From: Tardiphaga sp. 709
GTDB taxonomy: Bacteria > Pseudomonadota > Alphaproteobacteria > Rhizobiales > Xanthobacteraceae
Reading direction: 5' to 3'
NCBI RefSeq assembly: GCF_032401055.1
Contig: NZ_CP135529.1
Span: 3,098,501 to 3,162,500, forward strand
DNA: 64,000 nucleotides
Shown here: positions 165-37,496 of the stretch, one piece after another
How positions within the stretch are numbered: the first letter of the stretch is position 1
Layout: the number at the start of each line of letters is the position of its first letter
The notes under the pieces: generated by a model
What the model saw: the letters and a program-made list of their open reading frames with translations, nothing else
Told to the model about the DNA's origin: nothing
Database searches by the model: none
Made by a program: the position numbers and the translations under genes

Positions 165-872
165 TCAGGCCTCCGGCTCAACGATGGTGATGCCGAGCGA
201 CGGCAGGCCTTCGATCCGCGCGTCGATGACATCGCCCGGAACGACGGGACCCACGCCGGCAGGCGTTCCCGTATAGATGAGATCACCCGGCTCGAGCTTC
301 ATCTGCTTCGACAGCTGCGCCACGATCTCCGGCACGCTCCAGATCATCTGGCCGATATCGCCGCGCTGCTTCTCGACGCCGTTCACCGACAGCGTGATCG
401 CGCAATTATTGAAATGCCGGGCGTCACGTGCCGGCGCAATTTCACCGCAAGGCGCAGACGCGTCGAAGCTTTTGCCCATTTCCCAAGGCAGTCGCATATC
501 GCGGGCATCGCGCTGGCGGTCGCGACGGGTGAGATCGATGCCAACGGCATAACCCCAGATATAATCGAGCGCATCCTCCACCGCGATATCGCGGCCGCCG
601 CGTCCGATCGCCAGCACCAGCTCAACCTCGAACTGGAAGTCTTCGGTGAACGCCGGATAAGGCACCCGCGCGCCGTCCGGCACCACGCTGTCGCGCGGCT
701 TCTGGAAGAAGAACGGCGGATCGCGCTCGTCGGCTTCCTTCATCTCACGGATGTGGTCGAGATAGTTGCGCCCCACGCAATAGACGCGGCGTACAGGGAA
801 AAAACCGCCACCCACGACCGGCACGCCGGTGACGGGAATTGCGGGCAGCATCTGCTGGGACGTCACGCTCAC
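165..872 (-). CDS. Fumarylacetoacetate (FAA) hydrolase family protein
   Basis: About 235 residues, the usual size for single-domain FAH-fold enzymes (fumarylpyruvate hydrolase, acylpyruvase). Visible signatures are YCVGRNYLDHI near the N-terminus, the metal-binding E-x-E pair in FQFEVELVLAIG, the downstream Asp in GIDLTRRD, and the C-terminal GDLIYTGTPAGVGPV. These enzymes cut C-C bonds of 2,4-dioxo acids near the end of aromatic or N-heterocycle degradation. I chose the GTG at 872 because it overlaps the stop of the upstream deacetylase-like gene by four bases (GTGA), a translational-coupling arrangement; an ATG at 920 would reach 52 bases into that gene. Other starts are GTG 866 and ATG 851. 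Exact substrate unknown. Confidence 0.85.
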   Translation of the reverse strand: MSVTSQQMLPAIPVTGVPVVGGGFFPVRRVYCVGRNYLDHIREMKEADERDPPFFFQKPRDSVVPDGARVPYPAFTEDFQFEVELVLAIGRGGRDIAVEDALDYIWGYAVGIDLTRRDRQRDARDMRLPWEMGKSFDASAPCGEIAPARDARHFNNCAITLSVNGVEKQRGDIGQMIWSVPEIVAQLSKQMKLEPGDLIYTGTPAGVGPVVPGDVIDARIEGLPSLGITIVEPEA

Positions 873-1753
873 TTCGCCACCTGGGTATTGTACCAATCGA
901 GGATCTCGGCGCCATTCCAATGCACCACGCCTTCGAACTGGTTCACATAGTCATAGATCGCTTCGAGATACTTGATGCGGAACGGCTGACCCGAAATATA
1001 CGGGTGGATCGCGATCGACATGATCTTCGGCCGCTCGGCGCTTTCCGCATAGAGACGATCAAACTGATCCTTGGCGCGGTTCAGGAGCTGCGTGCTCTCG
1101 TGATGTTGCACCATCATCATCGGGATGTCGTTCATCTCCACCGTGTAAGGCAGCGTTGTGAGCGGTCCCTTCTCGGTACGGATCACCGTCGGCTCGTCGT
1201 CATAGACCCAGTCGCCGATATATTTCACGCCGGCTTCGGCGAGGAACTCCGGAGTCTCCAGCGTCTGCGTAAGACCCGGCCCGAGCCAGCCCACGGGGCG
1301 CTTGCCGGTGAAATTCTCAATCACATCCATCGAGCGGTTGATCATCGCTTTCTGGGCGGCCTCCTTGTGGATGGGCCCCTGCTCATAAGCATGGCCCATG
1401 AACTCCCAGCCGGCGTCCTTCGCCTGCTGGGCCACGCGCGGATAATCCTCGCAGACACGCGCATTGATCGACAGCGTCGGCTTGATGCCGAGCTTCTTGT
1501 AGAGATCGAAGAAGCGCCAGACACCGACACGCATGCCGTATTCGTGCCAGCCCCAATTGGCGACGTCGGGCAGCAGCGGGATGCCGGTCGGCGCTGGCAG
1601 CACCTGACGCGCCATCGGCTTGGCAATGTCCCAGACCTCCAGATTGACGATGGTCCAGACGATCATGCGGGCATTGCCCGGCAGCTTCAGCTTGGGACGA
1701 TCGACGATGGCGGAATAGTCGCAACGCTCGCGCGGCTGCATGGGACCGGTCAT
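869..1753 (-). CDS. Polysaccharide deacetylase family protein (PuuE/allantoinase-like)
   Basis: Complete 294-residue cytosolic protein of the NodB-like deacetylase fold. Visible family pieces: the N-terminal RMIVWTIVNLEVWD, WHEYGMRVGVWRFFDL, the turn LSINARVCEDYP, the GHAYEQGP metal-site region, and IAIHPYISGQPFR near the C-terminus. Members that lack polysaccharide context often act on small amides or ureides, as PuuE allantoinase does. The ATG at 1753 follows the isochorismatase-like gene by 37 bases. An in-frame ATG at 1822 would overlap that gene and is less likely. The partial gene at the left edge is a paralogue. Function is inferred from family and operon; substrate unknown. Confidence 0.85.
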   Translation of the reverse strand: MTGPMQPRERCDYSAIVDRPKLKLPGNARMIVWTIVNLEVWDIAKPMARQVLPAPTGIPLLPDVANWGWHEYGMRVGVWRFFDLYKKLGIKPTLSINARVCEDYPRVAQQAKDAGWEFMGHAYEQGPIHKEAAQKAMINRSMDVIENFTGKRPVGWLGPGLTQTLETPEFLAEAGVKYIGDWVYDDEPTVIRTEKGPLTTLPYTVEMNDIPMMMVQHHESTQLLNRAKDQFDRLYAESAERPKIMSIAIHPYISGQPFRIKYLEAIYDYVNQFEGVVHWNGAEILDWYNTQVAK

Positions 1754-1790
1754 GACTGGATGCCCTTCTAAAGTGGGGGATTGTAGGAGA

Positions 1791-2444
1791 TCATGCGGCG
1801 TGTCCTGCGCCTTTGAGGCCATCGAGCTGCATCACCGCATCGGTATCCATCACGAAGCCGAAGGCGGTGCGGATGCAGGCGAGGCCGGCGGCATGCAACT
1901 CCGGCCCGTCCATGCTGTCGACGCAGTCCTCGACGACGATCACCGAGTAGTCGCGCACGTTGGCAGCCGCCGTCGTCGCCAGCACACAGGAATTGGTGTT
2001 TACGCCGGTGATGAGCAGCGTGTTGATGCCGTGCGAACGCAACACGAAATCGAGATCAGTGCCCAAGAAGCAATCGTAGCGCTTCTTGGTGTTAACGATG
2101 AAGTCACTGGGGTCCAGCAGCTCCGGCATCACGGTGCAGCCGGGGCCACCCACGATATTATGCCGCATCACATTCTTGCGCGTTGCTTTTGAATCCTCGG
2201 CGCGGGTCCGCCAGAACGGGTTGGCGCGGATTTCTTCTTCGTCGCGATAGGACGTGACCTGATGGATCACGGGGATGCCGACACTACGGCACCAGTCAAA
2301 CAACCGCTTGTTAGAGGCAATGACCTGTTTCGCGACATCCGGCGTCGTCGGCATGGTTGCCACCGACATGTCGAGATGACCGCGATGCAGGTCGATCGCA
2401 ACGACGGCCGCCTTGATTTGATTGACGCCGAGATTCATGATCAC
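1791..2444 (-). CDS. Isochorismatase-like cysteine hydrolase (amidohydrolase)
   Basis: 217 residues with the family Asp-Lys-Cys triad in place: D18 in VVAIDLHRGH, K120 in NTKKRYDCF and C153 in VNTNSCVLAT. Relatives include N-carbamoylsarcosine amidase, maleamate amidohydrolase and ureidoacrylate amidohydrolase (RutB), all of which release ammonia or carbamate from small amides. Its ATG overlaps the stop of the upstream alpha/beta hydrolase gene by four bases (ATGA), so the genes are translationally coupled. With the FAA hydrolase and deacetylase-like neighbours, a role in degrading a nitrogen heterocycle or ureide is plausible. No signal peptide is visible. Confidence 0.88.
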   Translation of the reverse strand: MIMNLGVNQIKAAVVAIDLHRGHLDMSVATMPTTPDVAKQVIASNKRLFDWCRSVGIPVIHQVTSYRDEEEIRANPFWRTRAEDSKATRKNVMRHNIVGGPGCTVMPELLDPSDFIVNTKKRYDCFLGTDLDFVLRSHGINTLLITGVNTNSCVLATTAAANVRDYSVIVVEDCVDSMDGPELHAAGLACIRTAFGFVMDTDAVMQLDGLKGAGHAA

Positions 2445-3682
2445 ACCAGCGGGTTGAATGAGGTCTTCAGCAGCGCGCGCTGATCAATCTTGAATTTGTC
2501 TGCGAGCCAGTCGGCCAGCACTTCCTGACCGATGGTCGGATTGTCATGCTGGCAATGTTCAGCGCCAGTCTCATCCGGCGCAAGCACGCGCAGTGTCGCA
2601 TCGACACCATTGGCAATGGCGTGGTCATAGGTCGAGCGCGCCGCGGTCACCGTGAGCACGTCGTGGCCGCCATGCAGCACCAGATAGGGACACTTCATGT
2701 GCTCGAGATGGCCCTTCAGGGTAAAGGGCTTCATCAGATCATGAGCTTCCTTCATGGTCTTGGCGCCAAATACCCAGCGGATATGCATCGCCAGACCGAA
2801 GTCGTCGCCCTTCTGACCCCACATGTCATGCACCGACCACACCGCGCCATGCGAGATCACCGCCGCAAGGCGGTGCTCGTAGCAGCCGGCACGCGCGGCA
2901 TAGTAGCCGCCCATGCTGGAGCCGCAGACTGCGATCCGCGAGCTATCGACATCGGCGCGCTTTTCCAGCCAGTCGATGCATTTGCCGACCGGCACTTCGG
3001 TATCGGCGCGGGTCGCAAGACCGTGGCGGCGCAAGGTACCGCCCTGCCCGGGCAGATCGACCATCAGCACCGAGATGCCGCGCTGCAAGCAGCCATGGGC
3101 CTGCATGAACCACATTTCGTCTTTGATTGAATCGAGGCCGCCCATGCAGATCAGCACCGGCAGCTCGCCGCCCGGAAATGGCGCACGGATGAAGTAGCCG
3201 CAAATCGGCTTGCCCGGCTCATAAGGGATTTCGACCACTTCGCCGGGCGGATTGAGATAGGAAATGAACTTGTGTGAGCAGGCCTCCATCTTCTCGAAGG
3301 TCGGCAGCCGCCGCGGGTCGGTCGGCTCGAGATGGAATTCTGCCTGGCGGTAGTAATCGGCGGCCCGCAGGAAGCAGTTCATCGCCGTGCGGATGTGGCC
3401 GAGCTTCTCTTCGGAAAGGCCGCGCTGCCAGTTGGCATCCGCGATCACCATCCACTCTTTATGCCAGCTTTCGAGATCGCCCGGGATCATCCGCGAACCG
3501 GCCAGCATCACCTCGGACACGCTGCCGCCGCCCTCCTGGGTCTCACCGAGACCGCGGCGGAATTGATAGGCAAGCCAGGGATGCTCCGGCCAGTGATGCC
3601 AGCCAAACGGCTCATAGTGCGGGGTGCGATCCGCCGTGATCTCCTCGATGGCGTTTTCGCCGATCGACTTCCCTGCCGCCAT
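2441..3682 (-). CDS. Alpha/beta hydrolase (FrsA / dihydroxypseudooxynicotine hydrolase-like)
   Basis: About 413 residues, first gene of the minus-strand operon. The helical N-terminal part (WLAYQFRRGLGE, ANWQRGLSEEKLGHIRTAM) is followed by a C-terminal alpha/beta hydrolase domain with oxyanion-side LICMGGLDS, nucleophile elbow GSSMGGY, acidic residue in VLHGGHDVLT and histidine in ETGAEHCQHD. This layout fits the family holding 2,6-dihydroxypseudooxynicotine hydrolase and FrsA-like esterases, which cleave C-C or ester bonds. I prefer the ATG at 3682, with a purine-rich stretch upstream; 3724 is possible. The promoter should lie in the 3683-3909 gap shared with the divergent GntR gene. Confidence 0.83.
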   Translation of the reverse strand: MAAGKSIGENAIEEITADRTPHYEPFGWHHWPEHPWLAYQFRRGLGETQEGGGSVSEVMLAGSRMIPGDLESWHKEWMVIADANWQRGLSEEKLGHIRTAMNCFLRAADYYRQAEFHLEPTDPRRLPTFEKMEACSHKFISYLNPPGEVVEIPYEPGKPICGYFIRAPFPGGELPVLICMGGLDSIKDEMWFMQAHGCLQRGISVLMVDLPGQGGTLRRHGLATRADTEVPVGKCIDWLEKRADVDSSRIAVCGSSMGGYYAARAGCYEHRLAAVISHGAVWSVHDMWGQKGDDFGLAMHIRWVFGAKTMKEAHDLMKPFTLKGHLEHMKCPYLVLHGGHDVLTVTAARSTYDHAIANGVDATLRVLAPDETGAEHCQHDNPTIGQEVLADWLADKFKIDQRALLKTSFNPLV

Positions 3683-7792: not shown

Positions 7793-8095
7793 ATGAATCG
7801 CCGGACACAGGCCACGCAGGAATACCGAGCCAGCACGGTCGATGGCGGCTATCGTGATTCGGGCTTCTGGCCGGGTGACGTTGCGGCAGGCGTGGTTGGC
7901 GGTGCGGTCGGTGTAGCGGGTGCGGCTGTGGGTACCGCCGGGGCCATCGCAACTGCGCCATTCCGGAACAGCTACAATTCCTATGATGGCTACAATGGCG
8001 TACCGCGCGATTCCTACGCACAGCGCATGGGCTTCGTTTGTCAACCGGGAACCTAGTTCCGCGGCGAGGATGGCCGACTCCACATCTGCCAGTAA
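7793..8095 (+). pseudogene. Broken small glycine-rich secreted-protein gene (in-frame TAG)
   Basis: The open frame from 7793 gives a Gly/Ala-rich hydrophobic stretch (GDVAAGVVGGAVGVAGAA), then SYAQRMGFVCQPGT, and stops at TAG 8054-8056. Reading through the TAG continues as FRGEDGRLHICQ to TAA at 8093-8095. From memory, small exported proteins of Bradyrhizobium relatives end in a GTWFRGEDGR..HICQ-like motif, so the TAG probably replaces a Trp codon (TGG to TAG). The expected signal peptide is also missing at the 5' end, so the gene looks decayed at both ends. A short functional product ending at 8056 remains possible. Confidence 0.6.
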
Positions 8096-8111
8096 TACAA
8101 CTGACTCTGAG

Positions 8112-8142
8112 AAAAAGGGCGACCCAAAGGACCGCCCTTTTT
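8112..8142 (+). terminator. Rho-independent terminator
   Basis: Perfect 10-bp stem AAAAAGGGCG / CGCCCTTTTT with an 11-base loop and a T-tract, 17 bases after the end of the broken small gene. Its presence suggests that gene was once an independent transcription unit. Confidence 0.85.
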
Positions 8143-8489
8143 CGTGTCTGTTATCGGATAGAGTCCCAGGCGCACGAAACGACGGCACCGCTCCATCGGA
8201 CGTGAGCCCATCGCTTAGCGAACTACGTGTGGTCCCGTGTAGGTGATTGCGCGTCGAGTAGCAGCGCGATCCGAAAACCACTGTCAAGAATGACTCAAAA
8301 CTCTGAAGTCATCAATTTCAGTGATATGAGAGCAACAACAAATCTCTGGCTGAAAACACTTCCACATCAGCGTTGTATCGCGAAATAACGTCGGTCTGCT
8401 GACCAGATGACCGCACTGATGCAGTCATGCTGCACTTGCTCCAAAAGCGGGGAGAAGTAACACATCCGAGGTTGAAAAATGGCCCACAA
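8143..8489. other. Intergenic stretch, no gene recognised
   Basis: About 347 bases of mixed, in part AT-richer sequence between the terminator and the secreted-protein gene. No RNA gene, repeat or credible ORF is seen. If the next gene used its most upstream ATG (8427) the gap would shrink to 284 bases. Confidence 0.5.
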
Positions 8490-9152
8490 ATGGCGAGAAT
8501 TGGGTTTGTTATCTATATCGGAACCCACGTGGCTCATTTGTCCGCATACAAGTCACTCATATTTGCGCTACTGACGACCGCATCACTTTCCGGTCTCGCG
8601 TTGATGTCTTCGCCTGCTCGTGCGCAATGGTGGACTGCCGCGCCTGCGGATTATGAAGATTGCGCCGAGCGCATCGAAAAATCGACGGCTTCGAAAGACG
8701 CCAAGGCTGTGGCGCTGTCGGATTGCGAAAGCAAGTTCGCGGGACGGCGCAAGCGCGGTGGCGGCTATACGTATCACGACTTCATGCAGAACCGCAGCTT
8801 TGATATCGCTGGCCCGAACCCAACCACGGCTGAACAGAAGGCGATCGACGAGCAGTACAAGATCTATCTGGACAATCAGCGTCGCAGCGTCATCGTCGCA
8901 GCCTTCGCTGAAAAGCAGCGCGAGGCGCAAACCCAGGCTGCGCTCGAAACGGAATTTCGGCAGACTGCGGAAAGCCCAAGCGACGTGAAACCTGTTGTGC
9001 TACCCAGGCCTCGGCCCAAAGTGCGCGCCAAGGAGCCAGATTGCACGACCGAGCCGCTTGCCTGCGGGTGGTCCAAATTGTCATCGGGGCTGAAAGACAT
9101 CAAGGACGCGCTGTTCGGCACGCCCGCGCCGGCCAAGACCAAGCGCACCTGA
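8490..9152 (+). CDS. Hypothetical secreted protein
   Basis: A protein of about 220 residues with a signal peptide (SLIFALLTTASLSGLALM, cleavage near SSPARAQ). The mature part has two early cysteines (YEDCAERIEK and ALSDCESKFAG), a basic GRRKRGGGYTYHDFMQ segment, a helical region rich in Gln/Arg, a Pro/Arg-rich linker and two late cysteines (PDCTTEPLACGW). I do not know its function; similar uncharacterised exported proteins occur in the Bradyrhizobium group. The start is uncertain: ATG 8427, ATG 8490 or a later GTG/TTG just before the signal peptide are possible, and no clear ribosome site decides it. Confidence 0.7.
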   Translation: MARIGFVIYIGTHVAHLSAYKSLIFALLTTASLSGLALMSSPARAQWWTAAPADYEDCAERIEKSTASKDAKAVALSDCESKFAGRRKRGGGYTYHDFMQNRSFDIAGPNPTTAEQKAIDEQYKIYLDNQRRSVIVAAFAEKQREAQTQAALETEFRQTAESPSDVKPVVLPRPRPKVRAKEPDCTTEPLACGWSKLSSGLKDIKDALFGTPAPAKTKRT

Positions 9153-9172
9153 GGCGTAACGCCCATCAAGTA

Positions 9173-9637
9173 TCAATCCGTGATCACCATCGCCCAGAAC
9201 ATCCGGTAGGGCGACTTGGGATTGGCGACGTAAGCGACGCCGACCTTGCGCGCGCCGGACATGAGCAGGTTCTCGCGATGGCCTGGGCTCTCTTCCCATT
9301 GCTTCAACGTTTCGGGAAATGTCAGGAAGCCCGCCGCGATGTTCTCTGCTGCTTTGGATTTGCGGAACTTCCCCACACGCGCGGAGAAAACACCGCCGAC
9401 CTCATGGCTGACCTTGCCGCTGGATGACATCGCCTGCGCCTGAGCAAGCGCGACCGCATTTAGTTTACTGTCCAGCGTGACAGAGGAGAGCTTGTGCGCC
9501 CGGCGGAAGGCACTGATCTGGCTCGCATAATCAGCCGCTCTGGCCTCGCCCATGGTTGCCGCGACCAACACGCCACACAGCACAAATAACCTTATGGGGC
9601 CGTAATTCATGAAAATCGCTTCACGGGTCAGCTTCAA
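9173..9637 (-). CDS. CAP-domain (SCP/PR1-like) secreted protein
   Basis: 154 residues with an N-terminal signal peptide (IRLFVLCGVLVAATMGEARA) and a compact CAP domain. Visible CAP features: a VALAQAQAMSSSGKVSH helix ending in His, an AENIAAG segment, WEESPGHRENLL and a C-terminal MFWAMVI strand. Bacterial CAP proteins are exported and mostly uncharacterised. The ATG at 9637 overlaps the stop of the upstream small gene by four bases (ATGA), which argues for this start; an ATG at 9610 would also give a good signal peptide. It forms a two-gene unit with the gene at 9634-9888. Confidence 0.85.
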   Translation of the reverse strand: MKLTREAIFMNYGPIRLFVLCGVLVAATMGEARAADYASQISAFRRAHKLSSVTLDSKLNAVALAQAQAMSSSGKVSHEVGGVFSARVGKFRKSKAAENIAAGFLTFPETLKQWEESPGHRENLLMSGARKVGVAYVANPKSPYRMFWAMVITD

Positions 9638-9888
9638 TGACTATAGCGACGACGTTGCGCAGGAGGTCGCGGCAACGGCTTGCGGACATGGGCAGGCGCC
9701 TGCACTTCAGCCGCACGCCGTTGTTCGGCAAGCCGGGCATCATAACCCGGCGAGGGAGTGACCGTCGGAGGAACCGCAAATGCGGGGGCGATGGCACCCA
9801 TGCTTAGTATCGCCGCAACCACAGCGATAGCGGCGAAGGATTTCCGCTTCAAGACCTTCAAAAATAAGGTTCGCATCGATCGCTCCAC
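9634..9888 (-). CDS. Small secreted Pro/Arg-rich hypothetical protein
   Basis: 84 residues. A signal peptide (FAAIAVVAAILSMGAIAPAFA) is followed by a short mature tail of about 45 residues, rich in Pro, Ala and Arg, ending RRRYSH. It overlaps the downstream CAP-domain gene by four bases, so the two are cotranslated. No known domain is recognised. Start may be 9888 or the ATG four codons later. Confidence 0.65.
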   Translation of the reverse strand: MERSMRTLFLKVLKRKSFAAIAVVAAILSMGAIAPAFAVPPTVTPSPGYDARLAEQRRAAEVQAPAHVRKPLPRPPAQRRRYSH

Positions 9889-9947
9889 CCAAGAAAACGG
9901 CCCGAAGCGCTAACGCACTTCAGGCCGGCTTCGTTCAGTACGGAAGC

Positions 9948-10205
9948 TTACTTCTTGGCCTTCTTGGCCTTTGCAGTCTTGGTCACCTTGGTAGCCTTCG
10001 TGGCAACCTTTTTCGCCTTACGGCGACGATGACCGAGCGGAATGCCAAGCTTGATGGCTTTCTGACGCAGCGAACCACCGGTACGCTTCATCTCCTTGGA
10101 AATCTTCTCAAGCGGAGTCTGAGCCTTCGAATGCGCCTTCAGGATCTGTACGTCTTCCTTGGTGTACTCGCGACGGACGAGTTTCTTTTTCGCTTTCTTG
10201 GCCAT
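9948..10205 (-). CDS. Small basic DNA-binding-like protein with Lys/Ala tail
   Basis: 85 residues. The N-terminal part (REYTKEDVQILKAHSKAQ, then EKISKEMKRTGGSLRQKA and LGIPLGHRR) looks like a three-helix SANT/HTH-like fold in which the last helix and RR could contact DNA. The C-terminal 25 residues are almost only Lys, Ala, Thr and Val, like a histone H1 tail. A nucleoid-associated or regulatory role is likely but unproven. The gene stands alone, with a 490-base non-coding stretch upstream. Confidence 0.8.
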   Translation of the reverse strand: MAKKAKKKLVRREYTKEDVQILKAHSKAQTPLEKISKEMKRTGGSLRQKAIKLGIPLGHRRRKAKKVATKATKVTKTAKAKKAKK

Positions 10206-26469: not shown

Positions 26470-26739
26470 TTACTCCGGAACGTGTTGCAAATCGGTATAG
26501 AGCACACGCGCCGCAGTGGCATCGCCGCGCCGTTCCGAGAAGCCCTCGACCTTCATCACCCGCACGGTGCGATCCAGCGCCACCGTGAGGACGTCGCCAA
26601 TCTTCACACCGTGGCCCGGCGATTTCTCGCGCTCGCCATTGATGCGAACCTTGCCGCCTTGCACCAGCGCAGCGGCACTGGTGCGGGCCTTGACCACCCG
26701 CGCGTGCCACAGCCATTTATCAAGACGCTGGCGCTCCAA
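26470..26739 (-). CDS. RNA-binding S4 domain protein (Hsp15-like)
   Basis: 89 residues, nearly all one S4 domain: QRLDKWLWHARVVKART, LVQGGKVRINGE, and GDVLTVALDR. Hsp15 (HslR) binds 50S subunits carrying stalled nascent chains and helps recycle them. Follows the restored helicase stop (26788) by 48 bases, so the two are probably cotranscribed. Confidence 0.9.
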   Translation of the reverse strand: MERQRLDKWLWHARVVKARTSAAALVQGGKVRINGEREKSPGHGVKIGDVLTVALDRTVRVMKVEGFSERRGDATAARVLYTDLQHVPE

Positions 26740-26787
26740 TCAGCACACCACCAAATGGCGGCACGGCGCCGCCTCACATGACCTGTA

Positions 26788-30260
<3,473 letters not shown>

Positions 30261-32051: not shown

Positions 32052-32354
32052 ATGTCTCGGCGCTGTGAACTGACACTGAAGGGCCCCCAGGTGGGCCACA
32101 AGGTGAGCCACTCGAACATCAAGACCAAGCGCCGGTTTCTGCCGAACCTGGTCAATGTAACCTTCCTGTCCGACGTGCTCGGCCGCGGCGTGCGCTTGCG
32201 CGTGTCGGCGAATGCCGTGAAGTCGGTCGACCACCGCGGTGGCTTCGATGCCTATCTGATCAAGGCCCGCGAGAGCGAGCTGTCGCAGAAGGCCGTGCTG
32301 CTCAAGCGCGCCATCGAAAAGAAGAAGGCAGAGACCGCAGCAGTCGCGGCCTGA
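32052..32354 (+). CDS. rpmB: 50S ribosomal protein L28
   Basis: 100 residues. Starts [20 protein letters not shown] and has [15 protein letters not shown] and [21 protein letters not shown], the alphaproteobacterial L28 signature. Structural protein of the large ribosomal subunit. Monocistronic between its promoter and a strong terminator. Confidence 0.98.
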
Positions 32355-32392
32355 GCCTGACCTGCCGCTCAACTTGAGCGGACTGAAATTTG

Positions 32393-32425
32393 AAAACGGC
32401 CGGATCGCAAGATCCGGCCGTTTTT
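32393..32425 (+). terminator. Rho-independent terminator of rpmB
   Basis: Perfect 14-bp stem (AAAACGGCCGGATC and its complement) with a GCAA loop and five T. It marks the left border of the AT-richer island that follows. Confidence 0.95.
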
Positions 32426-32526
32426 GTTTGCTGGCAACTGCGATGAGCGCCTGTCGCAGGACACAACTATTGGTGGCACCTCCGAGTTAAAAGCGCCAAA
32501 CTGCATTCGAATGGGGAAGGCCGTAT

Positions 32527-34533
32527 ATGACCGCGATGAAAGGTGACGTTATCAATCGAGTTCGTCGGCTTCCAAAACCGTCGAAAGTCGCAGAAGCGCT
32601 ACAGCCAATATTTGAGGCGGTTAGCAATGCCGCGCATGCAGTCGAAGATCGATACAAAGACGCCTCGATCGCACAGGGGCGCATCTCCGTTACAATTAAG
32701 AACCTTAAGAAGCATGCGAAGTTCGAAGCCATTATCGCTGACAACGGCGTCGGTCTAACCAACGAACGATTTACAGCCTTTTGCACCACCGACACGCCGT
32801 TTAAAATGGAACGCGGAGGGAAGGGTATCGGGCGGCTTCTTTGGCTTGATGCCTTCGACGACATCGAAATCAATAGCGTGTTCGAACAAGGCACCTCGCT
32901 TCTTCGACGACGCTTTCGCTTTCGCTTGGACGAGAATGACCAGATAGTCGACGAAGAACTTATTGAAGCCCCCCAGGGATCATCAACGGGGACGACAATT
33001 ACATTTAAAGGCATCCGGGGAACCTCTTACCAAAAGCGGTTTCCTTCTCAAGCCAACTCAGTCGTCAGACATTTTGGATCACATTTCTTCGCTGACTTCA
33101 TCCTAGAAAGGTCTCCGGAGATTGCCCTCTTTATAGATGGAACGTCTGCTACATTCCCTAGAGATATTCGAGACCTTCTTATTGAAGATCGCGGCACAAA
33201 AGAAATTCAGAGCGAAGAATTCGGCGAGCTCAGCATTTCAAGCTTCGTTTGCAAAAAGGAAGCAAGCGCTGATTTTGATGGTACCCATCAACTACATTTT
33301 GTCGCCAATGGCCGAACTGTCACGACACGAAAGGTCGACGGGCTTCTCGGAATAGGCCGGTTCGGAGATAACGATTCTCATGTCTACCACGGCTGTGTGA
33401 GTGGCGCTTTTCTCGACGAGCGGGTTAATCAAGAGCGCACGAATTTCAACTTTGACGAAAAGGTCTCTGACGAGATCGCGAAACTTTGCGCGGAAAGCGT
33501 TCGCAGCTTCGCTCTAGGACCAGAGATTCAAATATTTGAAGGCGGCCGCCTCAAAACTATGAACGATTTCGTTGAGGAATACCCGTCGTTTCAATTCGAA
33601 GCCCCCGAAACTCTCTTGAAGCGAACTCCAAAGAACGCAGTCAAACCCGAGCAATTTGCACAAGCACTTATTCCGCTGCGAATTCGACGCGATGTCGAGC
33701 GTAAGAAACAAGTGCAAGCGATCGTATCGACCCTGGAATCCTCAGACGCAATTCCTATTGATTTCGCCGAAGCGGTAAGGAAAGCCGCGAGCGAAGTGCA
33801 AGCTGAAGAACAACGGCAACTCACCGAATACGTATTGCGGCGTAAAATGGTGCTTGACGTTATGGACGTTCTTATTCGACGGGTGCGCGAGATTCCAAAA
33901 GGAGAGGATAACTTTCACCTAGAAAGCACGCTGCACGGATTTATATGCCCCATGAAAGTGCGCGGCGACGATTTAGAGCAAGTCGAACAGTCCGACCACG
34001 ACCTTTGGGTGATCGACGAACGACTGGCCTTCGCGCGATATTTTGCATCCGACGTTCCGTTCGCGCAGTTAATCCATGATTCTCAAAACACAGAAAGACC
34101 GGACTTACTGATATTTGACAGACTCCACGGGCTAGGTTTCAACGAAGAAGAATCCCTAAAGAATGTTCTACTTGTTGAATTCAAACGGCCTGGCCGACCT
34201 GACTATGACGAGCGCTATTCGCCAATGAACCAAGTTATGCGCTACCTGAGTGAACTCACCTCCGGTCGCATTGAGACATTTGACCGCGACAACGTCCGAG
34301 TGGCACCGGACTGCATTTTTCACTGCTATATCGTCGCGGACATTGTTGGAGCACTAGATGTTCAAACAAGCGGATGGAAAACGACATCTAACGGACGTGG
34401 CCGATGGATTGATCTTAGCGGAAAGTATCGCGGCTCCATTGAGGTCATAGAATGGCGAGACCTTATATTGGACGCGCGCGCACGAAACAAAGCCTTCATA
34501 AACGCCGCAGGCGTTTTGTCGCCGCACCGATGA
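32527..34533 (+). CDS. GHKL ATPase - S5-like - PD-(D/E)XK nuclease fusion protein (putative defence protein)
   Basis: 668 residues, no signal or TM segment. N-terminal Bergerat ATPase: N-box E30 and N34 (FEAVSNAAHA), DNGVG at 72-76, GGKGIGR at 97-103, STGT at 153-156. A segment with HFVANGRTV (257-265) recalls the FVNGR of MutL/MORC S5 domains. A charged helical region (about 380-460) leads to a nuclease-like C-terminus: E466, D526 (ERPDLLIF), E551 and K553 (LLVEFKRPG), and Q569-x3-Y573 as in RecB-type nucleases. GC is about 42-52% in two blocks I counted, below its neighbours, so it is probably acquired. GGGAAGG precedes ATG 32527. Role inferred: ATP-controlled DNA cleavage. Confidence 0.82.
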   Translation: MTAMKGDVINRVRRLPKPSKVAEALQPIFEAVSNAAHAVEDRYKDASIAQGRISVTIKNLKKHAKFEAIIADNGVGLTNERFTAFCTTDTPFKMERGGKGIGRLLWLDAFDDIEINSVFEQGTSLLRRRFRFRLDENDQIVDEELIEAPQGSSTGTTITFKGIRGTSYQKRFPSQANSVVRHFGSHFFADFILERSPEIALFIDGTSATFPRDIRDLLIEDRGTKEIQSEEFGELSISSFVCKKEASADFDGTHQLHFVANGRTVTTRKVDGLLGIGRFGDNDSHVYHGCVSGAFLDERVNQERTNFNFDEKVSDEIAKLCAESVRSFALGPEIQIFEGGRLKTMNDFVEEYPSFQFEAPETLLKRTPKNAVKPEQFAQALIPLRIRRDVERKKQVQAIVSTLESSDAIPIDFAEAVRKAASEVQAEEQRQLTEYVLRRKMVLDVMDVLIRRVREIPKGEDNFHLESTLHGFICPMKVRGDDLEQVEQSDHDLWVIDERLAFARYFASDVPFAQLIHDSQNTERPDLLIFDRLHGLGFNEEESLKNVLLVEFKRPGRPDYDERYSPMNQVMRYLSELTSGRIETFDRDNVRVAPDCIFHCYIVADIVGALDVQTSGWKTTSNGRGRWIDLSGKYRGSIEVIEWRDLILDARARNKAFINAAGVLSPHR

Positions 34534-34542
34534 TAGGAGAAT

Positions 34543-34683
34543 TCACAGTAAAACTACGCGGTGACGCATCGTGATCTTGTCGCGGACAACGTCCGTCAGA
34601 AGACCGCTGGCGTGCATGTCACGCGCCGTTTCCAGCAGCTCCAGGGTCAGGCGGGTGCGCGAACCTCTCGTCTGATAGAGATA
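34543..34683 (-). pseudogene. Remnant of a small regulator/antitoxin-like gene
   Basis: The minus-strand frame has no start codon near its 5' end but reads RTRLTLELLETARDMHASGL then TDVVRDKITMRH, which resembles the N-terminal helices of XRE-type antitoxin/regulator proteins. It is cut off directly where the GHKL-nuclease gene ends (9 bases apart). I take it as a gene fragment at the island border; identity is tentative. Confidence 0.35.
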
Positions 34684-34730
34684 TCACGGGATTGGTAACA
34701 TTGAGCAGATGGATCGCTCGTCTGTCATGA

Positions 34731-34790
34731 GCCCCCTCACCGCCGCGAAGACGCGGCGACCTCTCCCCGGCGGGGAGAGGTGCGGCACCG
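34731..34790. repeat. Short GC-rich inverted repeat element
   Basis: Contains CCGCG..CGCGG and CCTCTCCCC GGC GGGGAGAGG palindromes. The CCCTCTCC/GGAGAGGG core is shared with the elements at 37567, 38577 and 51837, so it is a member or fragment of the same intergenic repeat family. Confidence 0.55.
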
Positions 34791-34855
34791 CCCTGATGTG
34801 CACGCGAAGCCCTTTCGAAAATGAAAGACGCGGCGATATCGGTACGAGGTGCCGG

Positions 34856-36917: not shown

Positions 36918-37160
36918 GCGCAAGGCCCCTCACCCGCGGGTGTTGCGGTTTTCACCAACGCTTTGCCAGCTTTCTTTGTCATCACTGACCTCGATCAAAA
37001 ATCTCATTCGTGAGAGTGCTGATGTGCTGCTGCCAGTATAGCGCATCACCGCTTTTCCCGCACCAAATCGCCTCATTTCCTCCGGGAACGCAGTGCAGCG
37101 TGCACCGTTCTTAACCCGGTTGCGCCGCATGCGGCGTGTGGGACAGATGAGGAGATTTCG

Positions 37161-37496
37161 ATGCAACAGATTTTGAAGAAGGCCGTGTTTTCGAAGGCCT
37201 TGCTTCCGCTGGCACTGGCGGGCGCGATTGGCGTCGCGGCGCCCGCCTTCGCCGCCGATGTCTATATGCGCCAGCCCGCGCCGCGCGCGGCCATGGTGCC
37301 GGTGCCATCGGGCCCGCTGACGCTGCAGGATGCGCTGGCGATCGCCTCGGGGATCGGCGTGGTGACGGTGCAGAACACCCATTTCGACGACAACGAATGG
37401 GAGATCGAGGGCCGCGATCAATACGGCAAATGGATCCAGGTCGACATCGATGCGCGCACCGGCGAAGTGCGCCATGTGGACCGTTCGATTATCTGA
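37161..37496 (+). CDS. PepSY domain-containing exported protein
   Basis: 111 residues. A signal peptide (ALLPLALAGAIGVAAPAFAA) is followed by a PepSY-like domain: TLQDALAIASGIGVVTVQ, DDNEWEIEGRDQYGKWIQVDI, and DARTGEVRHVDRS. PepSY domains inhibit peptidases or sense metals/ligands in the periplasm. Ends with a terminator 20 bases later; standing alone. Confidence 0.88.
   Translation: MQQILKKAVFSKALLPLALAGAIGVAAPAFAADVYMRQPAPRAAMVPVPSGPLTLQDALAIASGIGVVTVQNTHFDDNEWEIEGRDQYGKWIQVDIDARTGEVRHVDRSII

Follow-up and report, generated by a model that had tools for sequence, protein, structure and literature searches.

A predicted single-gene anti-phage nuclease of the paraMORC3 kind, with a Shedu-like core, in Tardiphaga sp. 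709

What is a lone ATPase–nuclease gene doing in a short segment of low guanine-plus-cytosine (GC) content, directly behind an L28-like core gene that we take to be rpmB? The gene occupies positions 32527–34533 (+) of a 64,000-nucleotide stretch of the Tardiphaga sp. 709 chromosome (contig NZ_CP135529.1, 3,098,501 to 3,162,500), which is called the window here, and its 668-residue product, P0001, is called the window protein. An initial annotation, made from the letters of the sequence, had described a GHKL ATPase fused to a PD-(D/E)XK nuclease, foreign to its surroundings and a candidate for defence. That observation is real, and the window protein is very probably a defence nuclease. We judge it likely to be of the paraMORC3 kind and to serve as an anti-phage nuclease encoded by one gene, with a Shedu-like core and an action that we model as an ATP-gated clamp; the predicted target of cutting is most likely invading phage DNA. 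What is observed is the domain make-up of the protein, its invariant catalytic sets, the spread of its homologues over plasmids and viral contigs, the defence genes that keep them company, and the location of the gene at a variable site.

Domain make-up and conservation

The reading frame is intact, running from ATG to stop over 668 amino acids (aa) with zero internal stops. Conservation was followed in two alignments, one of 16 sequences and one of 44, the latter comprising the window protein and 43 others that are 20–73% identical to it. The larger alignment was drawn from 50 full-length sequences by omitting the apparent near-duplicates L051, L052, L055, L056, L060 and L067, and three viral-contig matches of partial length, L032, L066 and L072, had been set aside before it was built. 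Since the open reading frames (ORFs) of 49 loci all span 650–709 aa, the layout of the family is constant.

The GHKL (Bergerat) ATPase domain covers residues ~1–210 (32527–33156, + as for all domains, with edges inferred from the model). Its motifs, E30/N34, DNGVG 72–76 and GGKGIGR 97–103, stand at the residues first read for them, as do those of the remaining domains, and E30, N34, D72, G74, G76, G97, G100, G102 and R103 are invariant in all 44 sequences. The S5-like or middle domain follows at residues ~211–310 (33157–33456, edges inferred); within it, R304 is invariant (44/44). In the FVANGR strand (258–263), A260 and R263 reach 90% conservation or more, and F258, V259, N261 and G262 belong to neither class. 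A long helical arm is modelled at residues ~311–455 (33457–33891), with helices at 311–328, 331–351, 374–404 and 413–454. The PD-(D/E)XK nuclease domain, residues ~456–660 (33892–34506, edges inferred), is placed by alignment, profiles and model. It holds E466, H470, LWVIDERL 493–500, SD 508–509, D526, E551-F-K553, Q569 and Y573; of these, E466, H470, L493, W494, D497, S508, D526, E551 and K553 are invariant (44/44), and Q569 and Y573 are conserved in at least 90%. Conservation of this degree puts the motifs well beyond coincidence. The same alignment yields a motif that marks the clade, H-x(19-27)-LW-x2-D-x-RL-x7-SD, and a spacing between the ATPase glutamate and the nuclease lysine (E-to-K) of 501–558.

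Structure prediction agrees with this division. An AlphaFold2 model of the full-length protein, built on the 44-row alignment, has a mean predicted local distance difference test score (pLDDT) of 88.1 and a predicted template modelling score (pTM) of 0.73; the nuclease part alone (263 residues) reaches 87.6 and 0.84. As we read it, helices and strands follow one another in the latter model as they would in a PD-(D/E)XK fold, and together the models back a division into a GHKL/S5 half, helical arms and a PD-(D/E)XK domain. The claim that one gene encodes both domains is borne out by invariant catalytic residues and by the models. In Foldseek, the whole protein matches TRAP1/Hsp90, TopoVI-B, MutL LN40 and SMCHD1 (E 6e-13 to 7e-11), a match that is taken to lie in the N-terminal half, the output carrying no residue ranges. 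With the same limit, the matches to MutL LN40 and to TRAP1 constructs of the N and middle domains are consistent with an S5 domain. MutL, MORC, TopoVI-B and Hsp90 have the GHKL-S5 fold in common with the window protein; their C-terminal domains differ from its own, and the fold is not specific to defence.

Sequence libraries say little about this protein. Single-protein searches of Pfam, PADLOC, NCBIfam and PDB sequences gave nothing usable for it, the best NCBIfam matches being an anti-sigma-factor ATPase (E 0.0011) and Hsp90 (0.0094), both far below their cut-offs. For MORC and MutL families there was no Pfam or PDB sequence match and no NCBIfam match over cut-off; a missing match is weak evidence. 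Pfam HATPase_c is found (E up to 0.1) in 31 of the 44 aligned sequences and is absent from the window protein itself; weak Pfam matches to HSDR_N (three sequences) and PDDEXK_9 (one) complete the picture. Among the 16 relatives, PADLOC matches to TmtA (0.0027, 1/16) and PtuB (0.04, 2/16) were dismissed as noise.

Relation to Shedu and to named GHKL-nucleases

The affiliation of the nuclease emerges from comparisons of profiles. With hhalign, the nuclease profile of the family matches a profile of 12 Shedu SduA proteins (SduA_C) at 94.7% (E 5.6e-8), and the whole family alignment matches it at 94.1%. Of the 15 non-GHKL loci that pass the SduA_C cut-off, 11 went into the Shedu profile (L137, L144, L145 and L146 omitted), together with a gene of the Vibrio fluvialis plasmid locus L019. 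Control profiles give 16.7% (HSDR_N_2), 0.1% (Mrr_cat), 0.1% (LmuB) and at most 0.2% when reversed; they were built on few sequences, with seven each for HSDR_N_2 and Mrr_cat. HSDR_N_2 was rejected as a parent of the nuclease, its score being far weaker than that of Shedu. Because the Shedu match stands so far above the controls, the nuclease of the window protein is, by profile comparison, a divergent and remote relative of the Shedu core. Like SduA proper, it would act within a single-protein system; the 12 aligned SduA proteins, unlike the window protein, have no GHKL motif by eye, and the SduA gene of L019 shows SduA_C alone by Pfam scan.

The initial annotation could not match the layout to a named system, a claim that no longer holds, as two published descriptions fit it. 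The first is paraMORC3, defined in 2008 by Iyer, Abhiman and Aravind as GHKL-S5 proteins with a C-terminal restriction-endonuclease-fold E-D-ExK domain, a subset of which is stand-alone, found mainly in proteobacteria and bacteroidetes, and sporadic in distribution (PMC2292703). The window protein likewise has an N-terminal GHKL domain with intact ATP-binding motifs (44/44, with a fold match), an S5 domain after it (model matches, conserved R263 and R304), and a C-terminal domain with invariant E466, D526 and E551-x-K553, a nuclease-like model and weak PDB nuclease matches. This likeness is to the published description of the architecture, not an alignment to published members. The LW-x2-D-x-RL ... 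SD motif is described from our alignment and was not seen in the parts of PMC2292703 consulted.

The second is VcSduA of Vibrio cholerae, described in 2025, which gave E. coli protection from Drexlerviridae and did the same for V. cholerae with phage X29 (PMC12137116, PMC12409362); its activity in E. coli was abolished by E27A or K557A (PMC12137116). In both proteins one gene joins a GHKL ATPase N-terminus to a PD-(D/E)XK C-terminus, with both catalytic sets present. The spacing from E27 to K557 is 530, within the range of the window family, and in the relatives L046 and L048 the two residues have exactly these numbers, E27 and K557. To these two and to L019, the relatives with numbering closest to that of VcSduA, the window protein is 24–25% identical. 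The window protein is a GHKL-S5-nuclease of an already named, once-tested kind, closest in design to VcSduA.

A second GHKL-nuclease group, L147–L152, stands beside the window family. Its six-member profile matches that of the window family at 99.6%, and a profile of L147–L151 matches the nuclease profile at 96.9%. Against the SduA_C cut-off of 27 bits, the two members scanned fall on either side, L147 barely passing (27.5) and L148 barely missing (22.3). E-to-K spacing is 477–478 in L147–L150, shorter than in the window family; L151 (499 or 521) and L152 (575 or 605) each allow two values, according to the choice between two lysines. On two plasmids, the second-group gene lies head to head with a DEAD/DEAH helicase gene (L149:3022–7752 and L150:3000–7752), a pairing that recalls the helicase-linked systems of Iyer et al. 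In the tree, L147–L150 fall outside the window family on a branch of 3.3.

With S5, long helical arms and nuclease on one chain, an ATP-gated, self-activating clamp is the simplest reading of how such a protein would work. GHKL ATPases of the MutL, Hsp90 and MORC fold dimerise on ATP. ATP binding would bring two window proteins together through their GHKL domains, and the dimer would close a MutL/MORC/Hsp90-like clamp, made of the S5 domain and the helical arms, onto foreign DNA. The clamp would probably load on replication intermediates or on free ends; the latter are our first candidate, since Shedu is reported to sense DNA ends, according to a review (PMC12904381). Closing of the clamp or hydrolysis of ATP would then free the C-terminal PD-(D/E)XK domain, with a proposed metal site at E466-D526-E551-K553, to cut the phage DNA. 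By analogy with VcSduA only, the host would be spared rather than killed.

The last of these steps has a rival in abortive infection, in which the triggered protein would cut DNA indiscriminately and kill or arrest its host. A GHKL domain and a nuclease alone cannot tell self from foreign DNA, and heterologous expression of Shedu systems is toxic according to the same review (PMC12904381). VcSduA, on the other hand, was protective at every multiplicity tested, which its authors read as direct restriction that preserves the host (PMC12137116), and abortive infection is unlikely to be the mode of action here.

Spread, defence-gene company and rival explanations

Thirteen plasmid loci of homologues were read by annotation. 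A type I restriction-modification (R-M) system lies near the homologue in L016; SIR2 beside an ATP-binding protein, XamI R-M and SAVED in L018; AbiE in L020; Abi in L015; an N-6 methylase in L017; and TIR and DUF3732 genes in L011. In L019 (6613–10007), the GHKL-nuclease gene shares 4 bases with an overlapping Shedu gene (SduA_C E 1.3e-25), and the pair sits behind a type I R-M cluster. By annotation names, the other six loci (L008, L009, L010, L012, L013, L014) have no plainly named defence gene besides toxin-antitoxin. L011, at 8055–10085, is a Ti plasmid homologue, 38.6% identical and near repB/repC, with a PIN gene as well as the TIR and DUF3732 genes downstream.

A comparison with PADLOC sets this company against the rest of the same plasmids. 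At E 1e-20, 107 neighbour proteins from 11 loci match 155 models, and the first 25 listed include HamB, PtuA, PtuB, GajA, Old, MkoA, SIR2, HerA and type II R-M. By contrast, 103 proteins from a distant 18-kb stretch of each plasmid match one model, mad3, through five proteins that are taken to be ABC-transporter ATPases. The neighbour set was hand-picked (107 of 165 features from 11 of the 13 loci, the Ti and clinical Vibrio plasmids omitted), after removal of the query genes and of others that were for the most part short or truncated; the controls were hand-placed and hand-picked (103 of 187 features), two transposase genes being dropped after a first scan. The 155 are PADLOC models, many of them redundant, not distinct proteins, and because of this and the hand-picking of both sets, 155 against 1 is a contrast and not a count of systems. 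The survey supports a defence role of the window protein indirectly.

Homologues come from 58 plasmid records, of which 50 cover at least 80% of the protein and 31 are predicted to be conjugative. The IMG/VR viral contigs add 51 loci, with an integrase on 21 of the 39 such records tested, and a single phage record matches, PJN03; there the homologue (L021:2485–4509) adjoins an integrase gene and is annotated, apparently wrongly, as an N-acetylmuramoyl-L-alanine amidase. This spread, including the phage copy beside an integrase, speaks for an alternative in which the main target is rival plasmids or prophages, in a competition among mobile elements, rather than lytic phages. The window copy, however, is chromosomal and alone in its segment, at a site that carries known anti-phage systems in relatives, and we regard such a target as quite unlikely to be the main one.

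Restriction genes among the neighbours bear on a further alternative, raised by Iyer et al. in 2008, that the protein is a subunit of a restriction system with unlinked partner genes. Homologues in L016, L018, L019 and L022 do lie beside restriction genes; next to the viral-contig homologue L022 these are a type III methyltransferase and, on a weaker match, a type III restriction enzyme. Against this, no constant partner appears by annotation names at the 13 plasmid loci and the one phage, and in most species the authors of the 2008 study did not detect solo partner systems (PMC2292703); the alternative is improbable.

In the genomes of relatives, the gene is patchy. Five of 101 relatives' genomes match, the window's own included, and none of the 17 others of the same genus does (six of the 17 being less than 90% complete). 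The closest relative, L001 of Bradyrhizobium algeriense, is 73% identical and L022 is 62%; in the tree, the window protein groups with these two and with rhizobial plasmids, and L019, L046 and L048 form part of another clade within the window family. In the surrounding DNA available, no rpmB lies near L001 or L022; homologues are thus not confined to one core locus, others being on plasmids and viral contigs. Plasmid hosts span four phyla by record taxonomy, and Subdoligranulum, known by name and presumably of another phylum, is counted as a fifth. A single-protein search of a genome-contig collection found 2 loci, a number that does not measure family depth, and with the gene of relative L048 as query no similar DNA was found in E. 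coli genomes. A profile search of the phylum, with matches in 98 of 299 genomes, was dropped as a family count because most matches listed are GHKL-only pieces of other proteins, ~40–110 positions long; among the matches listed, those of more than 300 model positions come from seven genomes, the window's own included. Patchy spread, low GC and defence-gene neighbours together uphold the view of foreign DNA and a candidate defence gene. A housekeeping, MutL-like DNA repair protein, which the GHKL, S5 and nuclease parts resemble and which the homologue L009 near imuA and error-prone polymerase genes might suggest, is highly improbable given the 17 same-genus genomes lacking it, the low GC and the span of host phyla.

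Several results weigh against a Shedu-like anti-phage nuclease with a clamp. Unlike VcSduA, which is reported with DUF4263 (PMC12137116), the window protein is not matched by Pfam SduA_C (DUF4263), and it is therefore labelled Shedu-like here rather than filed as Shedu. Among the 16 family sequences, the best SduA_C match has E 0.15, in one, and SduA_C is absent among the Pfam families found at E 0.1 for the 44. The top five PDB matches of the modelled nuclease domain in Foldseek are four chains of McrBC entries, taken to be McrC, and B. cereus Shedu, with nothing below E 0.001 (best McrBC 0.007, Shedu 0.06); the Shedu structures 8ti8_D and 8ti9_A come at ranks 4 and 10. The model does hold a nuclease-like core, as anticipated, with weak PDB matches. 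Run against PDB sequences, the family profile retrieves histidine kinases alone. Kinship to VcSduA is an agreement of layout and numbering, not an alignment, and DNA ends, clamp closing and host sparing are all borrowed from other proteins. Near-copies make up much of the set of 58 plasmid records, the Agrobacterium rows at 38.6% identity being an example; Agrobacterium supplies 18 of the 58.

The variable site behind rpmB

The gene is the sole gene of a low-GC cargo segment at 32425–34556 (2.1 kb), defined by GC contrast and by breaks of homology with the two closest relatives. GC is 0.499 in the segment, 0.631 in its left flank and 0.629 in its right. The ORF, also at 0.499, compares with 0.618 for the whole window; only 3 of 1240 overlapping 2007-base windows fall below it, and the lowest starts near 32550 and overlaps the gene. 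The low GC first noted is therefore sound against flanks of about 63%, while a block of 42% was not reproduced, the 500-base windows inside the gene ranging from 0.478 to 0.502. The left edge directly abuts a terminator-like hairpin and T run (32393–32424, +), itself behind the 100-codon L28-like gene (32052–32354, +), in keeping with the one-gene island first described. The right edge truncates an antitoxin-like gene that we read as a helix-turn-helix (HTH) regulator. Its 32-residue remnant (34656–34561, −) has 68.8% identity (E 3.8e-9) with an ORF of L128 that is uninterrupted over 139 codons, so the remnant noted earlier is real. Between 31500 and 36000 no Rfam element was found, and the two promoter-like sites in 32300–34800 are at chance level.

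The left flank is at least partly matched in 16 of the 17 other same-genus genomes (17 of 18 with the window's own), and the site was compared in 12 of the others, in which the hairpin is the left edge of a variable interval. In the closest two (flank pieces 92–98% identical), homology ends at 32424–32426 and resumes at 34557–34599, with other DNA between. The next stretch matching the window lies near 34560–34660 in four genomes and at 37046–37308 in eight. Nine of the 12 have 2.4–4.9 kb of low-GC DNA at the site (0.499–0.536 against 0.603–0.643 upstream) and three have less than 1 kb. The cargo differs from genome to genome and comprises Lamassu LmuA and LmuB in G013, an LmuB-like protein in G017, ABC-3C CTD12 with DUF2326/PDC-M68B in G011, AbiJ in G002, NACHT in G009, HD-CE plus HATPase in G012, and nucleotide kinases with an adenylosuccinate-synthetase-like protein in G010, with G014 alike by eye; nothing was recognised in G005. 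The site behind rpmB is a variable chromosomal hotspot that keeps other anti-phage genes in same-genus genomes. A limited literature search found no account of it, and it may be described elsewhere.

What is new here is the placement of the protein, the controlled neighbour contrast, the hotspot behind rpmB and the breadth of a clade missed by the libraries searched. The purpose of stand-alone paraMORC3 proteins, a puzzle in 2008 because an operon partner had not been found, is a question to whose answer the neighbour contrast and the hotspot point. Surveys that rely on PADLOC 2.0.0 or Pfam would undercount the family: no PADLOC model reaches the window protein, and in its relatives Pfam recognises the ATPase part at most. 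A broader proposal, tentative and open to considerable doubt, is that the family is a large, nearly uncatalogued clade of ATP-gated Shedu-like proteins in which the clamp is a sensor of DNA state that licenses its own nuclease, and that rpmB marks an undescribed genus-wide hotspot. If this were true, a MutL/MORC-type clamp would load on linear or topologically open invading DNA, unlike the reported end clamp of SduA. For anyone seeking further systems in the genus, the rpmB site is an easy starting point.

Some of the cargo deserves mention in its own right. L124:595–3654 (G012) encodes the 1019-aa HD-CE and HATPase (GHKL) protein, a second and different GHKL protein at the site. L120:1069–5168 and L127 (reverse complement 658–3631) share a cargo of three genes, for a 241-aa protein, for a nucleotide kinase with a weak VakA/dCTPase match, and for a fusion of a kinase to adenylosuccinate synthetase, to which G010 adds an M48-like peptidase; the set is a candidate for a nucleotide-based defence operon. 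L121:972–1748 (G001) is a low-GC stretch of 777 bp in which no ORF reaches 90 codons; part of it is reminiscent of anti-phage dCTP deaminases at their N-terminus. A small conserved gene (37161–37496, +) lies immediately within the farther right border, at 37046–37308, in eight of the 12 genomes. Upstream of the locus, a 1218-aa ORF (26604–30260, −), presumably helicase-like, carries a long low-complexity C-terminal tail.

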